Positions 24,184 through 31,590 of a stretch of 64,000 bases of DNA are shown in pieces; the stretch's first letter is position 1; each line of letters opens with the position of its first letter. Source of the DNA: Dyella silvae (lineage in GTDB: Bacteria > Pseudomonadota > Gammaproteobacteria > Xanthomonadales > Rhodanobacteraceae); contig NZ_JAPJBQ010000011.1 of NCBI RefSeq assembly GCF_026421305.1, positions 1 through 64,000 on the forward strand, given 5' to 3'. The position numbers and the translations under genes were made by a program. The notes below the pieces were generated by a model. The model searched no databases and had not been told where the DNA came from. It saw only the letters and a program-made list of their open reading frames with translations.

Positions 24184-24954
24184 TCAGCGCGCTGCAGCCG
24201 CCAGCAAGTCGGAGGACAACGCCGACGCCGCCACGACGACCTTGCTGAACCCGCCCGCACGCGCGGCCTCGGCCAATCGCTCGCTGCTCACTACCGCCAC
24301 CGCGGCATGAAGCCGCGCGTAGCCCGCCGCGGGCAACCCTTGCTGCAAGTTGTCGAGCGCTTCGGCGCTGGACAGCAACACGCGCGCGTCAGCAGGCAAT
24401 TGCGCCAGTGCATCGAGCTGGCGGCGCCGCCAGCGGGGCGTGCCGCGCCGATAGACGTGGACCTCGCGCAACTGTGCGCCGCGTGCGGCCAGTTCGGTAC
24501 GCAGCACGCCGCGGCCGCCGGGCGCCCCGATCAGTGCCACGCGGCGCCCGCGCAGATCGGCGAGGGTGTAATGATCAAGCAAACCTTCGCTGTCCTGTCG
24601 CTGCACCGGAGCGAGCGGCTCGCTCACGCCATGGCGGCGCAAGGCCTGGGCGGTACCCTGCCCCACCGCCAGCACCACGGCCCGGGTACGCAGCGGGGTC
24701 AGGCGGGCAGCGAAGCGGACGGCCGCTGGACTGGTGAATACCAGCAAGTCGTCTCCCATGGCGGCTCGCAAGGCATCGGCCATGTCATCGGGGCGGTCGG
24801 TGCCATGCAGCGAGAGGCCGGGCAACAGCAGGGCGATCCCGCCAAGGCGGCGCACTTGCCGCGCCAGCGGCGAACCGGTGCCCGCCGGACGCGTAATGAC
24901 CACGGTACGGCCGTTAAGCGCAGGCCCGGCGGTGGTCGTGGATCGCGTGGTCAT
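24184..24954 (-). CDS. hemD: Uroporphyrinogen-III synthase HemD
   Basis: A 256-residue two-domain HemD. It contains VVITRPAGTGSPLARQVRRL near the N terminus, VFTSPAAVRFAARL, ALIGAPGGRGVLRTELAARG and VYRRGTPRW, all usual family positions. It closes hydroxymethylbilane to uroporphyrinogen III with inversion of ring D. ATG at 24954 is chosen because GGAGAGG lies three to nine bases upstream; a longer frame to 25047 would read into the cloverleaf repeat. The hemC gene that often precedes it is not here. Confidence 0.92.
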   Translation of the reverse strand: MTTRSTTTAGPALNGRTVVITRPAGTGSPLARQVRRLGGIALLLPGLSLHGTDRPDDMADALRAAMGDDLLVFTSPAAVRFAARLTPLRTRAVVLAVGQGTAQALRRHGVSEPLAPVQRQDSEGLLDHYTLADLRGRRVALIGAPGGRGVLRTELAARGAQLREVHVYRRGTPRWRRRQLDALAQLPADARVLLSSAEALDNLQQGLPAAGYARLHAAVAVVSSERLAEAARAGGFSKVVVAASALSSDLLAAAAR

Positions 24955-25013
24955 GAGCCTCTCCATGGGAACGCCTGGCAGTGTACCGGCCGTTGCGGCC
25001 ATGGTCCTGGGCG

Positions 25014-25302
25014 GGGGGTGCTCTGCTCCATTCCGCGTGCCCGGCATGACGTCCAGAAGGCCCGCCGGCAGTGTCGCGTGGCGCAGGGCAGACTGGCCGT
25101 CTGTTCAAGCCGCGCGGTGCTGCCGGCGGGCCTGCTGGACGTCACCCCGTCAATTCAATTCAGAATGTTGGGGCCGCACGGTATGCGCGCAACGCTTCGC
25201 CCCGCCGCCTCGACAGACAGCCAGTCTGCCTTCGCCGTCGGGACTATGCGTTGCGCGCATACCGTGCGGTGACGGGCACGCGGAATGGACCAGAGCACCC
25301 CC
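25014..25302 (+). repeat. Cloverleaf repeat element, copy 1
   Basis: Outer arms 25014-25043 and 25273-25302 pair at 29 of 30 positions and include GGGGTGCTCTG. Inside are two long hairpins: arm A, 25048-25071 with 25120-25143 (23 of 24), starting GACGTCCAGAAGGCCCGCC; and arm B, 25173-25195 with 25248-25270 (22 of 23), starting GCCGCACGGTATGCGCG. The tips carry AGACTGGCCGTCTG (arm A) and CAGACAGCCAGTCTG (arm B), which are related in inverted orientation. The element fills most of the 395-bp gap between the divergent hemD and thioesterase genes, leaving about 59 and 47 bp outside. The same architecture recurs at 28073 and 29782. Confidence 0.9.
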
Positions 25303-25349
25303 TCGGGTGCGTACACTACGCCTCCCCCCAAGTCGCCTCCCCCACACCG

Positions 25350-25832
25350 ATGAGCAACACCGAACGACAGACGCTAGCGCGCAAGCTGGTCAGCTTCATG
25401 CGCGACGAAATTCCGCTGGCGCAGAACATGGATCTGCGCCTGCACAACTGCGACGAACGGCAGTTTTCCATGGCCGCGCCTCTCATGCCCAACGTGAACG
25501 ACAAGGGGTGCGCGTTTGGCGGCAGCCTGGTGAGCACGATGACACTGACCGGCTGGGGTCTGGTGGAGCTGGAACTGCGCATGCGCGGGCTCGATTGCGA
25601 CGTTTTCGTGGGCGAATCGACCGTGCGCTACCTCGAGCCGGTCTGGACCGACTTCGTCAGCGAGGCACGCCTGAGCGACGGCGCGGACTGGGCCACGTTT
25701 TTCGAAACGCTCGCCGCACGCGGCCGCGCCCGCATCGAAGTGACGTGCCAGGTACCGGGCACGGCAGAAAAGCCAGCCGCCACACTGTCAGCCCGATTCG
25801 TCGCCAAACGGCGCTCACCCGACGCCGTATGA
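25350..25832 (+). CDS. Hotdog-fold thioesterase, YiiD C-terminal type
   Basis: A 160-residue protein resembling the YiiD_C/putative thioesterase family. The NDKGCAFGGSLVSTMTLTGW segment corresponds to the family motif with an internal helix, and VGESTVRYLEPVWTDF is the conserved beta strand. Predicted to hydrolyse an acyl-thioester; substrate unknown. The ATG lies 47 bp after cloverleaf copy 1. Downstream is a lipoprotein gene on the same strand, 53 bp away. Confidence 0.82.
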   Translation: MSNTERQTLARKLVSFMRDEIPLAQNMDLRLHNCDERQFSMAAPLMPNVNDKGCAFGGSLVSTMTLTGWGLVELELRMRGLDCDVFVGESTVRYLEPVWTDFVSEARLSDGADWATFFETLAARGRARIEVTCQVPGTAEKPAATLSARFVAKRRSPDAV

Positions 25833-25885
25833 AAACGCGGCCTCGCTTGGGCACAATGCGGGGTATCGCCCAAGGGGGAAGTTCC

Positions 25886-26299
25886 ATGCGCCGCATCCTG
25901 ATCTTGCTGGTCACGCTCACCACGCTGCTGCTCGGCGGTTGCGCCACCGACCAGCGCAACGACGCGCTCACCACAACACTCAACGCCTACGCGCACACGG
26001 TGCGCTGGGGCGATTTCAACAGCGCGCTGCAGTTCGTCGATCCCAAAGTGCGCGAGGCGCATCCGATTCCCCCTCTGGAAATGTCCCGCTACCAGCAATA
26101 CAAGGTGAGCGAATATGACGAGGGCAAGGGCCCGATTCCCAAAGGCGAGTTCGAAGTGACCCAGGTGGTGCAGATCAATCTGGTGAACGTGAACACCCAA
26201 TCCGAGCGCACCGTGACCGATCACCAGACCTGGCGCTATGACGCCGAGGGCAAGCACTGGTGGTTGGTGAGTGGGTTGCCGGATATCAGCCGGCAGTAA
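25886..26299 (+). CDS. Hypothetical lipoprotein
   Basis: A 137-residue protein with a lipoprotein signal (MRRILILLVTLTTLLLGGC, lipobox LLGGC). The mature part starts ATDQRNDALTTTLNAYAHTV and contains RWGDFNSALQFVDP and a C-terminal TWRYDAEGKHWWLVSGLP strand, consistent with a small NTF2-like or ketosteroid-isomerase-like alpha+beta fold. AAGGGGGAA precedes the ATG. Envelope location expected; role unknown. Confidence 0.8.
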   Translation: MRRILILLVTLTTLLLGGCATDQRNDALTTTLNAYAHTVRWGDFNSALQFVDPKVREAHPIPPLEMSRYQQYKVSEYDEGKGPIPKGEFEVTQVVQINLVNVNTQSERTVTDHQTWRYDAEGKHWWLVSGLPDISRQ

Positions 26300-26336
26300 C
26301 CGGCATCAGGCACACGACGGGCCGGCGGCAAAACAG

Positions 26337-26366
26337 CGTCATCCCCGCGCAGGCAGGGATGACGCG
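26337..26366. repeat. Single REP-type hairpin
   Basis: GCGTCATCCC and GGGATGACGC pair around CGCGCAGGCA. It belongs to the family of hairpins also seen at 30763, 35659, 44500 and 59875. It lies just after the lipoprotein stop and could serve as a weak terminator. Confidence 0.75.
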
Positions 26367-26422
26367 CGCGGGCCGCAGGCGCAAGAAAGCCAGCCCCAGC
26401 ACCGCATGACCCCGCCAACCCG

Positions 26423-26428
26423 TATAAT
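26423..26428 (+). promoter_or_regulatory. Possible -10 element upstream of the rhodanese-like gene
   Basis: A perfect TATAAT lies 55 bases before the rhodanese-like start codon. No good -35 hexamer was found at 16-18 bases upstream, so the promoter call is tentative. Confidence 0.35.
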
Positions 26429-26482
26429 CGCCCGTTCTGTCCAACCCACGCGGCCCCTGGCTGCGCCTGCGGAAGCTTTCGA

Positions 26483-26929
26483 ATGAGCGATGTCCTGCAC
26501 AAGCTGCCCGAGTTCATCGGCAACCATCTCGCGCTCGTGGCGCTGTTTGTGGCCCTGCTGCTCGCCGTCATCGTGACGCAGCTGCTCTCGCTGTTCCGCA
26601 AGTACAAGGAACTGACTCCGGGCGGCCTGACCCTGCTGATCAATCGCGAAAGCCCGCTGATGGTGGACCTGTCCGCCTATGCGGACTACGAAAAGGCGCA
26701 CGTGCCCGGTTCGCGCCACGTGGCCATGAGCCAGTTCGATCCCGAGCAGAAGGACCTGGCCAAGGCCAAGGATCTGCCGGTGGTGCTGATCGACAAGGAC
26801 GGCCGCGGCGCCAGCGAAAAGGCCGCACAGCGTCTGGTCAAGGCGGGCTTCACCAAGGTCCACACCCTGGGCGGCGGCGTGCTCGCCTGGCAGCAGGCGC
26901 AGTTGCCTGTCGCGAAAGGCAAGAACTGA
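26483..26929 (+). CDS. Membrane-anchored rhodanese-like protein without catalytic cysteine
   Basis: A 148-residue protein with one membrane segment (residues about 16-36, ALVALFVALLLAVIVTQLL) and a cytoplasmic rhodanese domain (MVDLSAYADYEKAHVPGSRH, then LPVVLIDKDGRGASEKAAQRL, then GGGVLAWQQAQLP). The active-site loop normally begins with Cys; here Asp104 (IDKDGRG) takes that place, so sulfurtransferase activity is unlikely. This layout resembles E. coli YibN-type proteins, which also have a single anchor. Its stop codon touches repeat copy B. Confidence 0.88.
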   Translation: MSDVLHKLPEFIGNHLALVALFVALLLAVIVTQLLSLFRKYKELTPGGLTLLINRESPLMVDLSAYADYEKAHVPGSRHVAMSQFDPEQKDLAKAKDLPVVLIDKDGRGASEKAAQRLVKAGFTKVHTLGGGVLAWQQAQLPVAKGKN

Positions 26930-27021
26930 AGAAGTAAGAGTGAGGAGTTAGAAGTGAGAAGTGAGAGAGAGCCAGGCGCTATTCTCTCGTTACTCACTCC
27001 TCTTCACTCGTTTCTCGCTCC
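26929..27021. repeat. Purine-rich palindromic repeat (copy B) between convergent genes
   Basis: The left half (GAGTGAGGAGTTAGAAGTGA from 26939) and right half (TTCTCTCGTTACTCACTCCT from 26983) form an imperfect long hairpin. The right half encodes the C-terminal RETSEEE and the stop of the flavoreductase on the minus strand; the left half begins at the last base of the rhodanese stop. Copies A and C are at 1698 and 46518. Probable two-way terminator. Confidence 0.72.
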
Positions 27022-28070
27022 AAAATCCCGGCGCGGCTGCCCAGGATCTGCGCCAGTACATCGGGCGCGTAGTCGAACGAGTCGTAGTAAAGCCGCTCTT
27101 CCGGCAGATTGGCCTCGATGAAGAGCTTGCGCCCCGCGTCGATCATCGCGGGCGGACCGCTCATGTAGACGTCATAGCCGGCGAGATCCGGCTGGTCTTC
27201 CAGCAGCGCCTCGTGCACCAGGCCCGCGCGTAGACCACTGGCAGCGGCCTGCTCGGGGTCGGAAATCACCGCCTGAAATACCAGGTCGTGGGCCGTGCGT
27301 GCCCAGCCTTCGGCGAGTTCGCGCAGGTAAAGGTCGGCCGTGTTGCGCGCACCCCAGTACACCCGCATGGGGCGCCGGGTGCCCAGCGCAAGGAAATGCT
27401 CCACGATCGCCTTCACTGGCGCGAAGCCAGTGCCACCTGCCATGAAGATCATTGGCCGCTCGGAATCCTCGCGCGGCACAAAGGTACCCAGCGGCCCTTC
27501 GATGCGCAGCGCCTCGCCCTCTTTCAGCGCGTCGTTCACCCATGAGGTAAAACCGCCGCCGGCCACGTGCCGCACGTGCATTTCGATCGTGCCGTCCGGC
27601 TGGGGATGATTGGCGATGGAAAACGGGCGTCGCCGCCCCTCATCCAGCAACACATCAAGATACTGGCCCGGGAGCCAGGTGAGCCGCGCCTGCCCCGGAG
27701 CGGGCTTCAGGTGCAGACCCACGACATCGGGCGCCAGCATCCATTTGCGCGACACCACCACGTCCAGCCGTCGACGCACGATGTCCTCTACCGAGGTCAC
27801 TTCGCGCGCTTCGATGCGTAAGTCGCTACAGGGCACCGCCTGGCACAACAGGATGGCGTGTTGCGAGGGCGCCGTGCCGCTCAGGGCCAGCGGCGGATTG
27901 CGCGGATAAACACAACCACCCTCCAGCAGCGTAGCCTTGCAGCTGCCACATACGCCGGCACGACAGGAATACGGCAACGCGATGCCGGCCCGCTGCGCGG
28001 CTTCCAGCACGGTTTCGCCAGGCGCCACCGGGAATTGGCGGCCCGAAGATTGAATGGTGACAATAAACAC
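26994..28070 (-). CDS. 2Fe-2S ferredoxin/flavin reductase (CDP-6-deoxyglucoseen reductase-like)
   Basis: A 358-residue two-part electron-transfer protein. N-terminal plant-type ferredoxin (CRAGVCGSCKATLLEG with a later LLCQA; four Cys ligands), then an FNR-type FAD domain (RRPFSIANHPQ) and an NAD(P) domain (GGTGFAPVKAIVEHF, VYMSGPPAMIDAG, and a C-terminal YYDSFDYAP). It passes electrons from NAD(P)H through FAD to the iron-sulfur cluster; the partner is unknown. The start is GTG at 28070, and no Shine-Dalgarno sequence is visible because the outer arm of cloverleaf copy 2 begins two bases upstream (28073). The C-terminal seven residues come from repeat copy B. Confidence 0.88.
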   Translation of the reverse strand: MFIVTIQSSGRQFPVAPGETVLEAAQRAGIALPYSCRAGVCGSCKATLLEGGCVYPRNPPLALSGTAPSQHAILLCQAVPCSDLRIEAREVTSVEDIVRRRLDVVVSRKWMLAPDVVGLHLKPAPGQARLTWLPGQYLDVLLDEGRRRPFSIANHPQPDGTIEMHVRHVAGGGFTSWVNDALKEGEALRIEGPLGTFVPREDSERPMIFMAGGTGFAPVKAIVEHFLALGTRRPMRVYWGARNTADLYLRELAEGWARTAHDLVFQAVISDPEQAAASGLRAGLVHEALLEDQPDLAGYDVYMSGPPAMIDAGRKLFIEANLPEERLYYDSFDYAPDVLAQILGSRAGILERETSEEE

Positions 28071-28072
28071 TA

Positions 28073-28340
28073 GGGGTGCTCTGTTCTATGAAACGCGGGT
28101 GTCACCGGCTCTGTCTGCCCGCAGATGTGTGTCGCGTCGGTGAAGGCTGGCTGGCCGCCTGTCGAGACGACGTGGCGCGCAGCAGCCGGCAGACAGAGCG
28201 GCCTTGCGGGTGATGTCCAGAAAGCCCGCAGGCCGCGGTGTGCGGCTTGCCCAGGCAGCCAGCCTGGGCTGCGCCACACCCCACATCCTGCAAGCTTTCT
28301 GGACATCATGCCACCCACGTTTCATAGAACAGATCACCCC
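28073..28340 (-). repeat. Cloverleaf repeat element, copy 2
   Basis: Outer arms 28073-28101 and 28312-28340 pair at 27 of 29 positions and share GGGGTGCTCTG with copy 1. The inner arms are in swapped order relative to copies 1 and 3: GCTCTGTCTGCC (28108-28119) with GGCAGACAGAGC (28188-28199), then GATGTCCAGAAAGC-type 28212-28232 with 28287-28307 (19 of 21). This places copy 2 in the opposite orientation. It fills almost all of the 333-bp gap between the divergent flavoreductase and thioesterase genes, so any promoter for the flavoreductase must lie inside it. Confidence 0.9.
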
Positions 28341-28403
28341 GAACATTGTCGCGGCTACAACGGTCGAACGACAATGTGGGCCCCCTCGCGAGAATCAACC
28401 ACC

Positions 28404-28844
28404 ATGGCTATCTGGAAGCAGGACACCTCGCTCGACCGCCTCAACGGCATGAGCGCCAACACCATGATGGAGACGCTGGGCATCCGCTTTACCGAGACCG
28501 GTGATGACTGGCTCCGGGGCACCATGCCGGTGGATCACCGCACCCATCAGCCTTATGGCTTGCTGCATGGTGGCGCCTCCGTAGTGCTGGCCGAGACGCT
28601 GGGCAGCATGGCCGCCATGCTGACGCTCGACCCCGCGCAGGAAGCGGCGGTGGGCCTGGACATCAACGCCAACCACATCCGTGGCGTGCGCAGCGGCACG
28701 GTGACCGGTACCGCACGCGCGGTGCATATCGGCCGCTCCACGCAGGTGTGGGAAATCCGCATCGAAACCGAAGTGGGAGAGCTGGTATGCATTTCGCGTA
28801 TCACCATGGCGGTGATTCCGGCTCGCGCGGTAGCGCCACGTTGA
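28404..28844 (+). CDS. Hotdog-fold acyl-CoA thioesterase (PaaI/MenI-like)
   Basis: A 146-residue hotdog protein. The motif HQPYGLLHGGASVVLAETLG with the catalytic-helix Glu, and the GLDINANHIRGVRSGTV strand, match the YdiI/MenI-PaaI group. It should hydrolyse an aromatic or fatty acyl-CoA; E. coli MenI acts on 1,4-dihydroxy-2-naphthoyl-CoA, but no men genes are nearby, so the substrate stays open. It overlaps the start of srkA. Confidence 0.87.
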   Translation: MAIWKQDTSLDRLNGMSANTMMETLGIRFTETGDDWLRGTMPVDHRTHQPYGLLHGGASVVLAETLGSMAAMLTLDPAQEAAVGLDINANHIRGVRSGTVTGTARAVHIGRSTQVWEIRIETEVGELVCISRITMAVIPARAVAPR

Positions 28845-29785
28845 GTCTCGAAGCTCCTTACGCATCGCTCGACCCCGATCGTGTGCTCGACGCCGTGACG
28901 GCGTGCGGCTTGTGGCCGGATGGCCGCCTGCTCGCGCTCAACAGCTACGAAAACCGCGTATGGCAGGTAGGCATCGAGGATGCCTCGCCGGTCATCGCCA
29001 AATTCTATCGCCCCTATCGCTGGAGCGATGCGGCCATTCTGGAAGAGCACGCCTTCGCGCTCGAGCTCGCTGCCGACGACCTGCCGGTGGTCGCACCATT
29101 GGTATTTGGTGGCCGCACGCTGCTGCACCACGAGGGCTTTCGCTACGCGCTCACACCACGACGCGGCGGCCGTGCGCCGTCGCTGGAGTCGGCCGAACAA
29201 CTCGAATGGCTTGGACGTCTGATTGCACGCATCCACAGCGTGGGCGCCAGGCAACCGTTCCAGCATCGTGGGCGCATAGATCGCGCCACGCTGATCGAGC
29301 AACCGATGAGCGCCGTGCTGTCGTCATCCCTGTTGCCGCCTTCGCTGCACGCCGCGTATCGCGCTGCGGCCGAGAGAGTGGATCAGGCCGTTGCCCATCG
29401 TTTTGAAGCCGTCGGCCCGGTACGTCAGTTACGCCTGCATGGAGACTGCCACCCAGGCAACGTGCTGTGGACCGATACGGGCCCGCACTTTGTCGATCTC
29501 GACGACGCGCGCATGGGCCCCGCCGTGCAGGACCTTTGGATGCTCGCCAACGATGAGGCGGCCATGCAGGCCCTGCTCGACGGCTACCAGCAAATGCGCG
29601 ACTTCGACTTCAGCGAGCTCGCCCTGGTTCCTGCCTTGCGCGCCATGCGCCAGCTGCACTATGCGGGCTGGATCGCCACCCGCTGGCACGACCCGGCCTT
29701 CCCCGCCGCCTTCCCGTTCGTGGCCGAGCCGCGCTGGTGGGAGCAGCACATCACTGACCTGCACGAACTGGCGGACGAGCTCTAG
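28787..29785 (+). CDS. srkA: Stress response kinase A (SrkA/YihE family)
   Basis: A kinase of the choline/homoserine kinase-like fold. Strong matches to E. coli SrkA include LNSYENRVWQV, VIAKFYRPYRW, ILEEHAFALEL, the catalytic LRLHGDCHPGNVLW, the metal-binding FVDLDDARMGPAVQDLWML and LRAMRQLHYAGWIATRWHDP. It phosphorylates Ser/Thr proteins and protects against stress-linked death in E. coli. ATG at 28787 has GGGAGAG about six bases upstream but gives a long overlap (58 bases) and an unlike N terminus. TTG at 28841, overlapping the previous stop as TTGA, gives a length closer to SrkA and is a serious alternative. Its TAG stop lies in the outer arm of cloverleaf copy 3. Confidence 0.92.
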   Translation: MHFAYHHGGDSGSRGSATLSLEAPYASLDPDRVLDAVTACGLWPDGRLLALNSYENRVWQVGIEDASPVIAKFYRPYRWSDAAILEEHAFALELAADDLPVVAPLVFGGRTLLHHEGFRYALTPRRGGRAPSLESAEQLEWLGRLIARIHSVGARQPFQHRGRIDRATLIEQPMSAVLSSSLLPPSLHAAYRAAAERVDQAVAHRFEAVGPVRQLRLHGDCHPGNVLWTDTGPHFVDLDDARMGPAVQDLWMLANDEAAMQALLDGYQQMRDFDFSELALVPALRAMRQLHYAGWIATRWHDPAFPAAFPFVAEPRWWEQHITDLHELADEL

Positions 29786-30075
29786 GGATGCTCTGAACAA
29801 GTTTGCGCAGCCGCCATGATGTCTGGAAGACCCGCCGCCTGTGTTGTACGGCGCCGGGAAGACTGGCCGTCTTGCCAAGCCGTGCGGCGCAGGCGGCGGG
29901 CCTTCCAGACATCACCATAACCCTTAAATAATCCGGCGATGGCCGGCTCTGTCTGCCCGCATCTCTTCGGGGCGCCGGCTCGACAGACCGCCAGTCTGCC
30001 TTCGCCGACTCCCCTGCGATCTGCGCGCAGACAGAGCCGGTGGCGGCTGCGCAAACTTGTTCAGAGTATCCCTAG
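29782..30075 (+). repeat. Cloverleaf repeat element, copy 3
   Basis: Outer arms 29782-29816 and 30041-30075 pair at 34 of 35 positions (CTAGGGATGCTCTGAACAAG at the left end). Inner arm A, 29818-29841 with 29890-29913 (23 of 24), starts GATGTCTGGAAGACCCGCC; inner arm B, CCGGCTCTGTCTGC (29943-29956), pairs perfectly with 30027-30040. Tips again carry AGACTGGCCGTCT and CAGACCGCCAGTCTG. The element begins inside the srkA stop codon and may terminate its transcript. Confidence 0.92.
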
Positions 30076-30176
30076 CGGCATGTCCCTGTACGGCACCCGA
30101 CGAAACGCCAACCGGCTCTGGTAACACGGCGGTGGCGATCCGCTAAGCTCGCCGCTTTCGACCCTGGATCTGGCAC

Positions 30177-30611
30177 GTGCGCAATTTCCTTTTCCGACTT
30201 ATCGGCATCCTCGAGGTGGCGGGTGGCTTCTTCGGCATGGTGAACATGCTGCGCCGGCTGTTGCCCTTCGGATCGCACGACTCGCTGGTGGCGGTGATCG
30301 GTCTGGTGCTGTACGTGTTCGTGATGGTGGCGGGTGTGCTGTTGCTGGAAGGTAGCGAGCGCGGCGTATCGCTCTCGGGCTGGGCACAGGTGCTGCAGCT
30401 GCCGCTGATCGCTACGCCGATCCTGAGTTATGCGCTGTTCTCTGGTGGCTACGTGAATGTCTACGCCACGCTGCATTTGCCGGTGAGCCTTGGGCTGGAT
30501 TGGCATTTCGGCAGCGAGGGGTTTGTGTTGGCGGTGGCGGGGCCTTCTGTATCGAGGTTGGGTATTAATTTGCTGGCGTTGTTGTCGTGGTTGGCGTTGC
30601 GGATTCGCTGA
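30177..30611 (+). CDS. Hypothetical four-segment membrane protein
   Basis: A 144-residue protein with four hydrophobic segments (near FRLIGILEVAGGFFGMV, VAVIGLVLYVFVMVAGVLLL, LQLPLIATPILSYALFSG and INLLALLSWLALRI). It starts at GTG 30177 with no strong binding site; no ATG is available near by. It has no neighbour on the same strand within reach and I do not recognise a family. Confidence 0.65.
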   Translation: MRNFLFRLIGILEVAGGFFGMVNMLRRLLPFGSHDSLVAVIGLVLYVFVMVAGVLLLEGSERGVSLSGWAQVLQLPLIATPILSYALFSGGYVNVYATLHLPVSLGLDWHFGSEGFVLAVAGPSVSRLGINLLALLSWLALRIR

Positions 30612-30684: not shown

Positions 30685-31590
30685 TCTAGCTCCCTCTCCC
30701 CTCCGGGGAGAGGGTTGGGGTGAGGGGCGGGTGCTCGCGGTAACGTAGATTTCCCTCACCGTCATCCCTGCGAAAGCAGGGATCCAGTGACTTTGCTCTA
30801 GTGTGGGGTTTCCGCGACCTGGCTCGCCTGCGGCGGGCTTCCGACCTCCTGCCGGAGGCCGGGTCACTTTTCTTTGCGTGCTCAAAGAAAAGTAACCAAA
30901 AGAAAGAGCACCCCACTTGGCGCTTGCCGGGCTGATAGCCCGGCAAGTCCGTGAGGGTTGGCCGGGCTTTTCGACAGGGCTTCCTGCCCTGACGAAAAGG
31001 GATCGGCATCCATGCCGATCCCCCTGCGGGCCTGATCGTCCAACCCTCACCGCCGCACAGGGGCCCCTCAGATCAAAAGTACACGGCTCGTGCCGCTGGC
31101 GCGGCACATCGCATCACCTCATATCGCGTGCTTTTTTTGTAGGAGCGCACTTGTGCGCGACCAGCCGACGGAGCGGCAACGATGGGACGCGGCGGTCGCG
31201 CACAAGTGCGCTCCTACAGTGAAATCATGGGCATGGGGAAACCACGGCCGCAGCTTCTGGGGCGCCTCGCGCGCCGCTCTAGCTCTGGCTCTTGACCTCC
31301 GGGCCCCTATGGCGCGCCATCGGGGTGGCCTTTCTCTTGGTTACTTCTCTTTGGCCACGCAAAGAGAAGTGACCCGCTGTCCGGCAGGACAGCGGAAGCC
31401 CGCCGCAGGCGAGCCAGGGTGCGGAACTCTGAAAAGAGCGAAAGGCACTGGATGACCAGCCTTCGGCTGTTGTGAAGCGCTTCCAGCTTCCGCTGGGATG
31501 ACGGTGAGGGGAATGAGCGTTACCGCGAGCACCCCCCTCACCCCAACCCTCTCCCCGAAGGGGAGAGGGAGCTAAAAGCATCGCCGACTC
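30685..31590. repeat. Large nested palindromic REP island 1
   Basis: This gene-free stretch is built from at least ten hairpins. Its left half runs TCTCCCCTCCGGGGAGA (30698-30714), a GTCATCCCTGCGAAAGCAGG hairpin (30763), a CTCCTGCCGGAG arm, GCCGGGCTGATAGCCCGGC, AGGGCTTCCTGCCCT and GGGATCGGCATCCATGCC (to about 31022). The centre is a GTAGGAGCGCACTTGTGCGC pair (31139-31217). The right half runs the related modules in reverse orientation to TCTCCCCGAAGGGGAGA (31551-31567). Island 2 at 43587-44590 has the same plan and near-identical stretches. Reading frames on either strand here only translate repeats. Confidence 0.85.

Follow-up and report, generated by a model that had tools for sequence, protein, structure and literature searches.

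What keeps the long stems of a repeat paired when their sequences diverge, and is it DNA or RNA whose folding is maintained? The question is raised by a 64,000-nucleotide stretch of Dyella silvae DNA (contig NZ_JAPJBQ010000011.1, positions 1 to 64,000), referred to as a whole as the window, which contains three cloverleaf-shaped intergenic repeats, designated e1, e2 and e3 (Table 1). The best reading, to which we assign a probability of roughly 0.6, is that these repeats are miniature inverted-repeat transposable elements (MITEs) which an IS5-family transposase mobilizes in trans and which present an RNA hairpin on either strand, where it would be read by a host factor.

The first-pass annotation had located the three repeats, and both their positions and the pairing of their outer stems are confirmed. 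Of the four-way plan proposed for them, the closing stem and the two long arms, A and B, stand in every copy, whereas the short linker hairpin is found only in copies 1 and 3 and not in copy 2. The shared sequence is larger than the short motifs to which it had been said to be limited: between copies 1 and 3 the identity is 74% in an ungapped block of 132 nt and 73% in one of 97 nt, and copy 2, which is inverted relative to both, reverse-matches them at 73% and 71% along approximately 130 nt. Folded as RNA, the elements reach z-scores of −17.4 (e1), −14.2 (e2) and −19.2 (e3), and none of 200 dinucleotide shuffles folds equally well. The arm B fold of e2 is decayed relative to its orthologue in genome G002, with a whole-element energy of −189 vs −221 kcal/mol.

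Further copies were sought and are present both in the own genome and in public genomes. In D. silvae, 23 copies were seen, namely the three of the window plus 20 found at 27 fetched loci; the other seven loci are not elements, being single matches resembling a terminal inverted repeat (TIR; L063-L065) or weak matches (L066-L068 and L075). The pattern of the arm A tip, GGCGCAG-N6-CTGGC-N-G-N6-CAAGCC, matches 96 stretches in public genomes. In 66 of these the flanks are paired at 21 or more of 25 positions, so that the arm is present, and in the other 30 at 17 or fewer. Sixty-four of the 66 are labelled Lysobacterales (Dyella, Rhodanobacter, Pseudoxanthomonas, Xanthomonas and others), while the remaining two come from one Eremiobacteraeota bin and one Alphaproteobacteria bin. 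Two of the 30 stretches below the threshold (L143 and L150, of Collimonas and Ideonella) are nevertheless whole cloverleaf elements in which an additional internal loop is present; they share TAGGGCCTGTT as an end along with the arm A tip, but their arm B is of another kind. Another element, L101, is interrupted by the end of its stretch. Within the order, the tip pattern occurs in 14 of 299 genomes, against none for the reversed-pattern control among the matches listed; with three mismatches allowed it was uninformative (1251 and 1242 matches vs 757 and 701 for the control). Plasmid records searched with e1, phage records searched with e3 and viral contigs searched with the tip pattern gave no match, and one element of the class-wide set described below, L263, matched a single Halomonas record over 64 nt in the plasmid/phage search. 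By script, 77 elements were delimited (16 from the own genome, 61 public), with lengths of 164-384 bp, 69 of them between 255 and 310 bp and the typical unit at about 265-296 bp. Deletion derivatives are present (L055, L058, L059, L112 and L157), and L123, L126 and L155 are stretched to 327-384 bp by extra nested hairpins CTCGCTCCTCAAAGCCG...CATCCATG within arm B. The type-3 elements (L070-L074, L076 and others) have a different arm B tip, GTGTATCGACATACAC between GCGTCATCGCTCGG and CCCTC-CTCTTCCTTG, and their stem is variable too.

The arm tip is built of a helix of about 7 bp, a conserved asymmetric internal loop (GCAG/CAA, with the variants GCCG/CAA and GAAG/CGA), a second helix of about 7 bp and a terminal loop that is usually NGGYN. 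Among 369 genomes of the Gammaproteobacteria, the trained model R1 found at least 13 places in the own genome and weak matches in five others, and those of the latter that were inspected are elements with two facing arms, or parts thereof. A wider pattern derived from the R1 matches, AAGGC-N7-GCAG-N17-21-CAA-N7-AACGCC, in which only loop and junction letters are fixed, occurs, frequently in many copies, in 34 of the 369 genomes and 26 of 272 genera, against none for the reversed control among the matches listed; it misses the copies of D. silvae itself, where the AAGGC/AACGCC junction is absent. In 79 hairpins taken from the matches listed in these 34 genomes, with within-genome repeats mostly left out by hand, helix 2 is paired at 94.0% vs 64.4% when shuffled, and 40 G-T pairs stand against five A-C. 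The second arm was examined with a strict motif (GCAG/CAA, GCCG/CAA or GAAG/CGA loops), whose background is 43 in 6000 random stretches. Of 72 long Lysobacterales elements, 23 have it on the strand opposite to the first motif and two on that of the first motif, and in 47 it is undetected; the corresponding counts in 30 class-wide loci are 11, none and 19. Where a second motif is detected, it is therefore opposite-facing in 34 of 36 elements. The GCCG/CAA loop of e3 also appears in five opposite-strand motifs of the class-wide set. A long terminal repeat was recognized by script in 21 of the 30 class-wide loci, whose ends form at least eight groups by eye.

The strand that folds can be read from the mismatched pairs of the arms. 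The inner 19 pairs of 76 arm A hairpins contain 285 G-T and only three A-C, compared with 14 and 8 in pairs 20-33; the same inner pairs in 13 arms of less than 80% identity give 44 vs 2, and at pair 1 a G-T is found in 50 of 77 copies. A count over the whole of arm A (303 G-T vs 63 A-C) proved misleading, because 52 of the A-C stem from one position outside the stem. The stem filter is not the source of the asymmetry, since the 30 rejected public matches remain at 17 or fewer paired positions even with A-C allowed. The outer stems show no strand asymmetry except for the conserved pair at the junction, and the outer 20 pairs of arm B are symmetric (50 vs 51). In the inner 14 pairs of arm B, counted in those elements that conform to the type 1/2 pattern (25 of 77), A-C exceeds G-T (37 vs 13), as expected if arm B is sense on the other strand; arm B of type 3 (14 elements), whose pairing register is unsettled, gives 14 G-T vs 3 A-C. 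Whole-element minimum free energies by strand, lower with arm A first in 56 of 77, carry a mixed signal since the two arms differ, hence the use of pair-wise counts. The retention of G-T with avoidance of A-C indicates that one strand folds, because no process that treats the two DNA strands alike can give such an asymmetry. As frequent G-T pairs are better tolerated by RNA than by DNA, RNA is preferred, and the strand of inner arm A most likely folds as RNA.

An alternative that must be weighed here is that DNA structure matters, with one strand folding as single-stranded DNA, or a cruciform being extruded, and the hairpins being read by a transposase or a replication protein. Element e1 folds well as DNA (z −17.1), facing hairpins would offer one sense hairpin on either DNA strand, and the outer stems combine symmetry between strands with joint change of their two sides. 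Nevertheless, the many G-T pairs of inner arm A are weak in DNA and good in RNA, A-C is nearly absent, and a tip motif common to elements with differing ends is unlikely to be the site of one transposase. We consider this explanation unlikely, though it deserves serious attention.

Covariation within the stems, the significance of which the first-pass annotation had left to be established, lies far above the shuffled control. For the inner 70 nt of arm A, compared in 43 hairpins, 93.6% of the cells are paired vs 77.7% with shuffled partners, the double-change cells number 183 vs 62, and the covariation score is 0.505 vs 0.204, levels not attained by any of 500 shuffles. Relatedness among sequences can by itself lift them above shuffles in the absence of structure; with the partner slid by one to three columns the score is at most 0.122. 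Thirty full-length elements are predicted to fold into the cloverleaf, with compensated change in 70 of 99 pairs. The ratio of double to single changes in these elements differs between stems, amounting to 166/14 in the outer stem, 37/1 in outer arm A, 105/6 in arm B and 41/91 in inner arm A; excluding inner arm A, the sum is 308 double vs 21 single cells. In a subset of nine sequences below 80% identity, the respective values are 56/3, 18/0, 29/1 and 18/22. These counts indicate evolution via G-U states in inner arm A but not in the other stems. In the outer stems the two sides change jointly and one-sided states are few, which fits renewal of the arms. Consequently, the two explanations offered at first, a maintained structure or arms renewed by conversion, are both supported in different parts of the same element, the former by the G-T retention in inner arm A and the latter by the outer stems. 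A comparison of e2 with its G002 orthologue covers 16 changed pairs, a small sample in which arm B of e2 is decayed; pairing is kept in four double and four single changes and broken in eight.

Template switching is described as homogenising inverted repeats and maintaining hairpins (PMC8794818, PMC8604942), and as a known process that yields changes on both sides (PMC8794818). The joint change of the outer stems would be expected from repair of DNA palindromes by template switching. The same process underlies a reading without function, according to which MITE palindromes are merely renewed by template switching and the conserved tips are remnants of common descent. This would account for the excess of double changes in the outer stems and agrees with the existence of deletion derivatives. 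However, switching explains neither why G-T is kept and A-C avoided nor why unpaired loops between covarying stems are conserved across the 34 genomes, and we regard this reading as improbable.

The chassis has the features of a MITE. Terminal inverted repeats of about 30 bp were aligned in the 77 elements (candidate L136 was under score), the copies are dispersed in intergenic positions according to heuristic gene calls, and empty sites exist in relatives. Among 68 elements, after exclusion of nine that misfit the anchor, YTAR adjoins the left end in 38, the right end in 37 and both ends in 23. Direct repeats of 4 bp accompany 10 of 41 type-1 elements, against 3.9 expected and a maximum of eight in 200 shuffles. 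The empty sites that the first-pass annotation had suggested looking for in close relatives were found: all 17 relatives have an empty e1 site, and the e2 site is filled in one (G002) and lacks the element in 16. At the e3 site, short empty stretches (15-53 bp) are present in 4 of 17 relatives and other sequence in the rest, including, in G013, a family element in the opposite orientation. The stop codon of the phosphotransferase-like gene upstream of e3 is the TAG of its left CTAG. Two observations concern these sites in their own right. A 35-bp TIR-like remnant beginning GGGCTGCTCTG lies at the e2 site in L188 (G014) and L199 (G010), which suggests an older element lost by deletion. The region behind the phosphotransferase-like gene, window positions 29785-30176, is a hot spot where several relatives carry other palindromic repeats.

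Type-1 MITEs share their ends with an autonomous IS5-family transposon found in relatives. The transposase domain PF01609 is matched in 38 of 78 genomes of the family. Two of 30 fetched loci, L210 and L215, are roughly 1.2-kb transposons with the type-1 ends AGGATGCTCTGAT or GGGATGCTCTGA, and their genomes (G116 and G076) also carry three and four arm A pattern matches. The L210 protein is an IS5-family transposase (NF033581, 350.6 bits against a cut-off of 140; PF01609, 111.4 bits), and L215 has one stop within the domain match. IS5-like ends, of the form YTAR-GGAAGGTCTGAACAA, occur at several more of the 30 loci, and the ends of L228 and L231 are, by eye, close to those of Pseudoxanthomonas elements. 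In 18 further genomes, where 28 loci were inspected, MITE-like ends were found only in the IS5-family transposon L291 (G392), whose ends resemble those of L261 in another genome (G466) and thereby the class-wide end group of L261 and L283. The other class-wide end groups may belong to different transposases. Separately, a shorter palindromic repeat, GTCATCCC...GGGATGAC, occurs in the window at 26334-26365 and 30757-30783, and CGTCATTCCC sequences related to it occur as inverted repeats around the transposase loci L204 and L218.

In the proposed working, an IS5-family transposase would recognize the outermost 14-17 bp of the terminal repeats and, preferring YTAR targets (CTAG/TTAA), would once have inserted the elements at such sites, often at stop codons. 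With two like hairpins facing opposite ways, a transcript crossing from either side would carry one sense hairpin, the arm tip being the putative working part that a host factor would recognize as RNA. Most likely, the tip would serve in intergenic transcripts as an RNA processing or stability element that works in either orientation, a role like those proposed for NEMIS and ERIC, and this effect could make insertions tolerable or useful. Template-switch repair would keep the outer stems complementary in DNA, so that both terminal repeats change together. Heuristic gene calls gave a position for 74 elements, with tandem flanking genes in 41 cases (22 sense, 19 antisense), divergent ones in 24 and convergent ones in nine; the lack of orientation bias suggests that it is immaterial which way an element points, which is what the facing design predicts. 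That arm A is instead a small-RNA gene with its own promoter, riding on the MITE by chance, would suit its strand-specific structure and strong covariation but is very improbable, as a scan of 24950-30200 that covered sigma-70-like promoters only gave none against 0.8 expected, arm A does not overlap any terminator-like site (a stem followed by a T run), and the elements occur in either orientation.

Table 1. Position, orientation and pairing of the three elements of the window and their parts
Feature	Position	Strand	Pairing or basis	Context
Element e1	25014..25302	+ (arm A first on +)		between HemD-like gene (-) and thioesterase-like gene (+)
e1 left outer stem / terminal repeat	25014..25046		pairs with 25270-25302, 94% complementary	
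e1 arm A hairpin	25047..25144	+	inverted-repeat search, fold	within inverted repeat 25042-25149
e1 arm A tip, GGC-GCAG-7 bp-pentaloop-CAA-GCC	25080..25111	+	exact pattern match	
e1 arm B hairpin	25174..25269	-	tip motif of GAAG/CGA kind, readable on - strand	
e1 right outer stem / terminal repeat	25270..25302		inverted-repeat search	
Element e2	28073..28340	- (arm A first on -)		between ferredoxin-oxidoreductase-like gene (-) and thioesterase-like gene (+)
e2 left outer stem	28073..28104		pairs with 28309-28340, 91% complementary	
e2 arm B hairpin	28108..28199	+	inverted-repeat search	
e2 arm A hairpin	28211..28308	-	inverted-repeat search	
e2 arm A tip (GCAG/CAA)	28244..28275	-	pattern match	
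e2 right outer stem	28309..28340		inverted-repeat search	
Element e3, CTAG at each end	29782..30075	+		between phosphotransferase-like gene and gene without Pfam match
e3 left outer stem	29782..29816		pairs with 30041-30075, 97% complementary	
e3 arm A hairpin	29817..29914	+	inverted-repeat search	
e3 arm A tip, loop variant GCCG/CAA	29850..29881	+	escaped strict pattern; read from sequence	
e3 arm B hairpin	29943..30040	-	inverted-repeat search	
e3 right outer stem, CTAG end	30041..30075		inverted-repeat search	

Several results weigh against a mobile element acting through RNA. Single-stranded DNA of one strand could yield an asymmetry of the same kind. A role as a 3' untranslated region is not favoured, given the absence of orientation bias and the 24 of 74 elements between divergent genes. 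Model R1 matched only six of the 369 class genomes, and the second motif is undetected in 66 of 102 elements. Regarding the mover, a search of the own genome for PF01609 gave no match, so the copies e1-e3 may be fossils, and a transposon was matched only to type-1 ends and, across genomes, to one other type. Furthermore, the duplication signal is weak: 4-bp direct repeats are not in excess in type 3 (24 elements) or type 2 (only three), and the filled and empty e2 sites give no clear target-site duplication.

Beyond the family itself, the facing hairpin pair may be a class-wide RNA passenger untied to one transposon. It would be carried on MITEs with the ends of different transposases, the ends being rewritten together by palindrome repair, and would thus switch movers while keeping an orientation-independent signal. 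We offer this extension tentatively, considering it somewhat less probable than not.

The first-pass annotation knew of no described element with this plan, which holds in so far as no Rfam family matches and fails for the chassis, a MITE with IS5-type ends being of a known kind. In Rfam 15 no match reaches the gathering score, and only sub-threshold chance matches (microRNA, eukaryotic and other) and one flank tRNA appear. No description of these elements was found in the published literature, where coverage of subscription journals was thin, so that this is weak evidence. IS5-family MITEs likewise have the terminal repeats of IS5 transposons, a YTAR-type target, no internal transposase and many intergenic copies; in contrast, the body here is not a recognizable IS remnant and contains a conserved, covarying hairpin pair that recurs with other ends. 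REP units bear a GTAG or CGTC tag, and the REP/BIME/REPIN and RAYT systems are also intergenic, palindromic and sometimes paired in opposite orientation. REPs are, however, given as 20-40 bp (PMC3733652), and the present elements, of about 265-296 bp with terminal repeats, do not fall among them. Correia/NEMIS in Neisseria and ERIC in enterobacteria and Yersinia are short MITEs whose transcript forms a long hairpin; compared by description only, theirs is a single end-to-end stem-loop, unlike the two facing arms with conserved internal loops found here. We know of no sequence relation between them and the present elements. NEMIS has been proposed as an RNase III substrate and ERIC hairpins as setting the expression of neighbouring genes (PMC2229807, PMC2267715). 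The CcrM-associated intergenic repeats (CIRs) of Caulobacter and Brucella have two arms joined by a linker and are contrasted with end-to-end-pairing repeats (PMC2229807); again compared by description only, CIRs carry GANTC at a loop, whereas the present elements have a closing stem and other loops. Finally, RNA hairpins maintained by template switching (PMC8794818) show both-sided changes without intermediates as well, although what is described there is a mutational process and not an element family. The chassis is therefore of a known kind, while the cargo and its two regimes of change appear to be new.

If this reading is true, the Gammaproteobacteria possess a structured RNA family without an Rfam entry, dispersed by transposition to many intergenic regions, which would constitute a ready-made distributed regulator. 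One 290-bp element would then juxtapose RNA-like evolution through G-U intermediates with DNA-like simultaneous change of both arms, making it directly testable how long hairpins retain their pairing. The simultaneous change of both ends also points to a way in which a MITE could keep up with new transposases.

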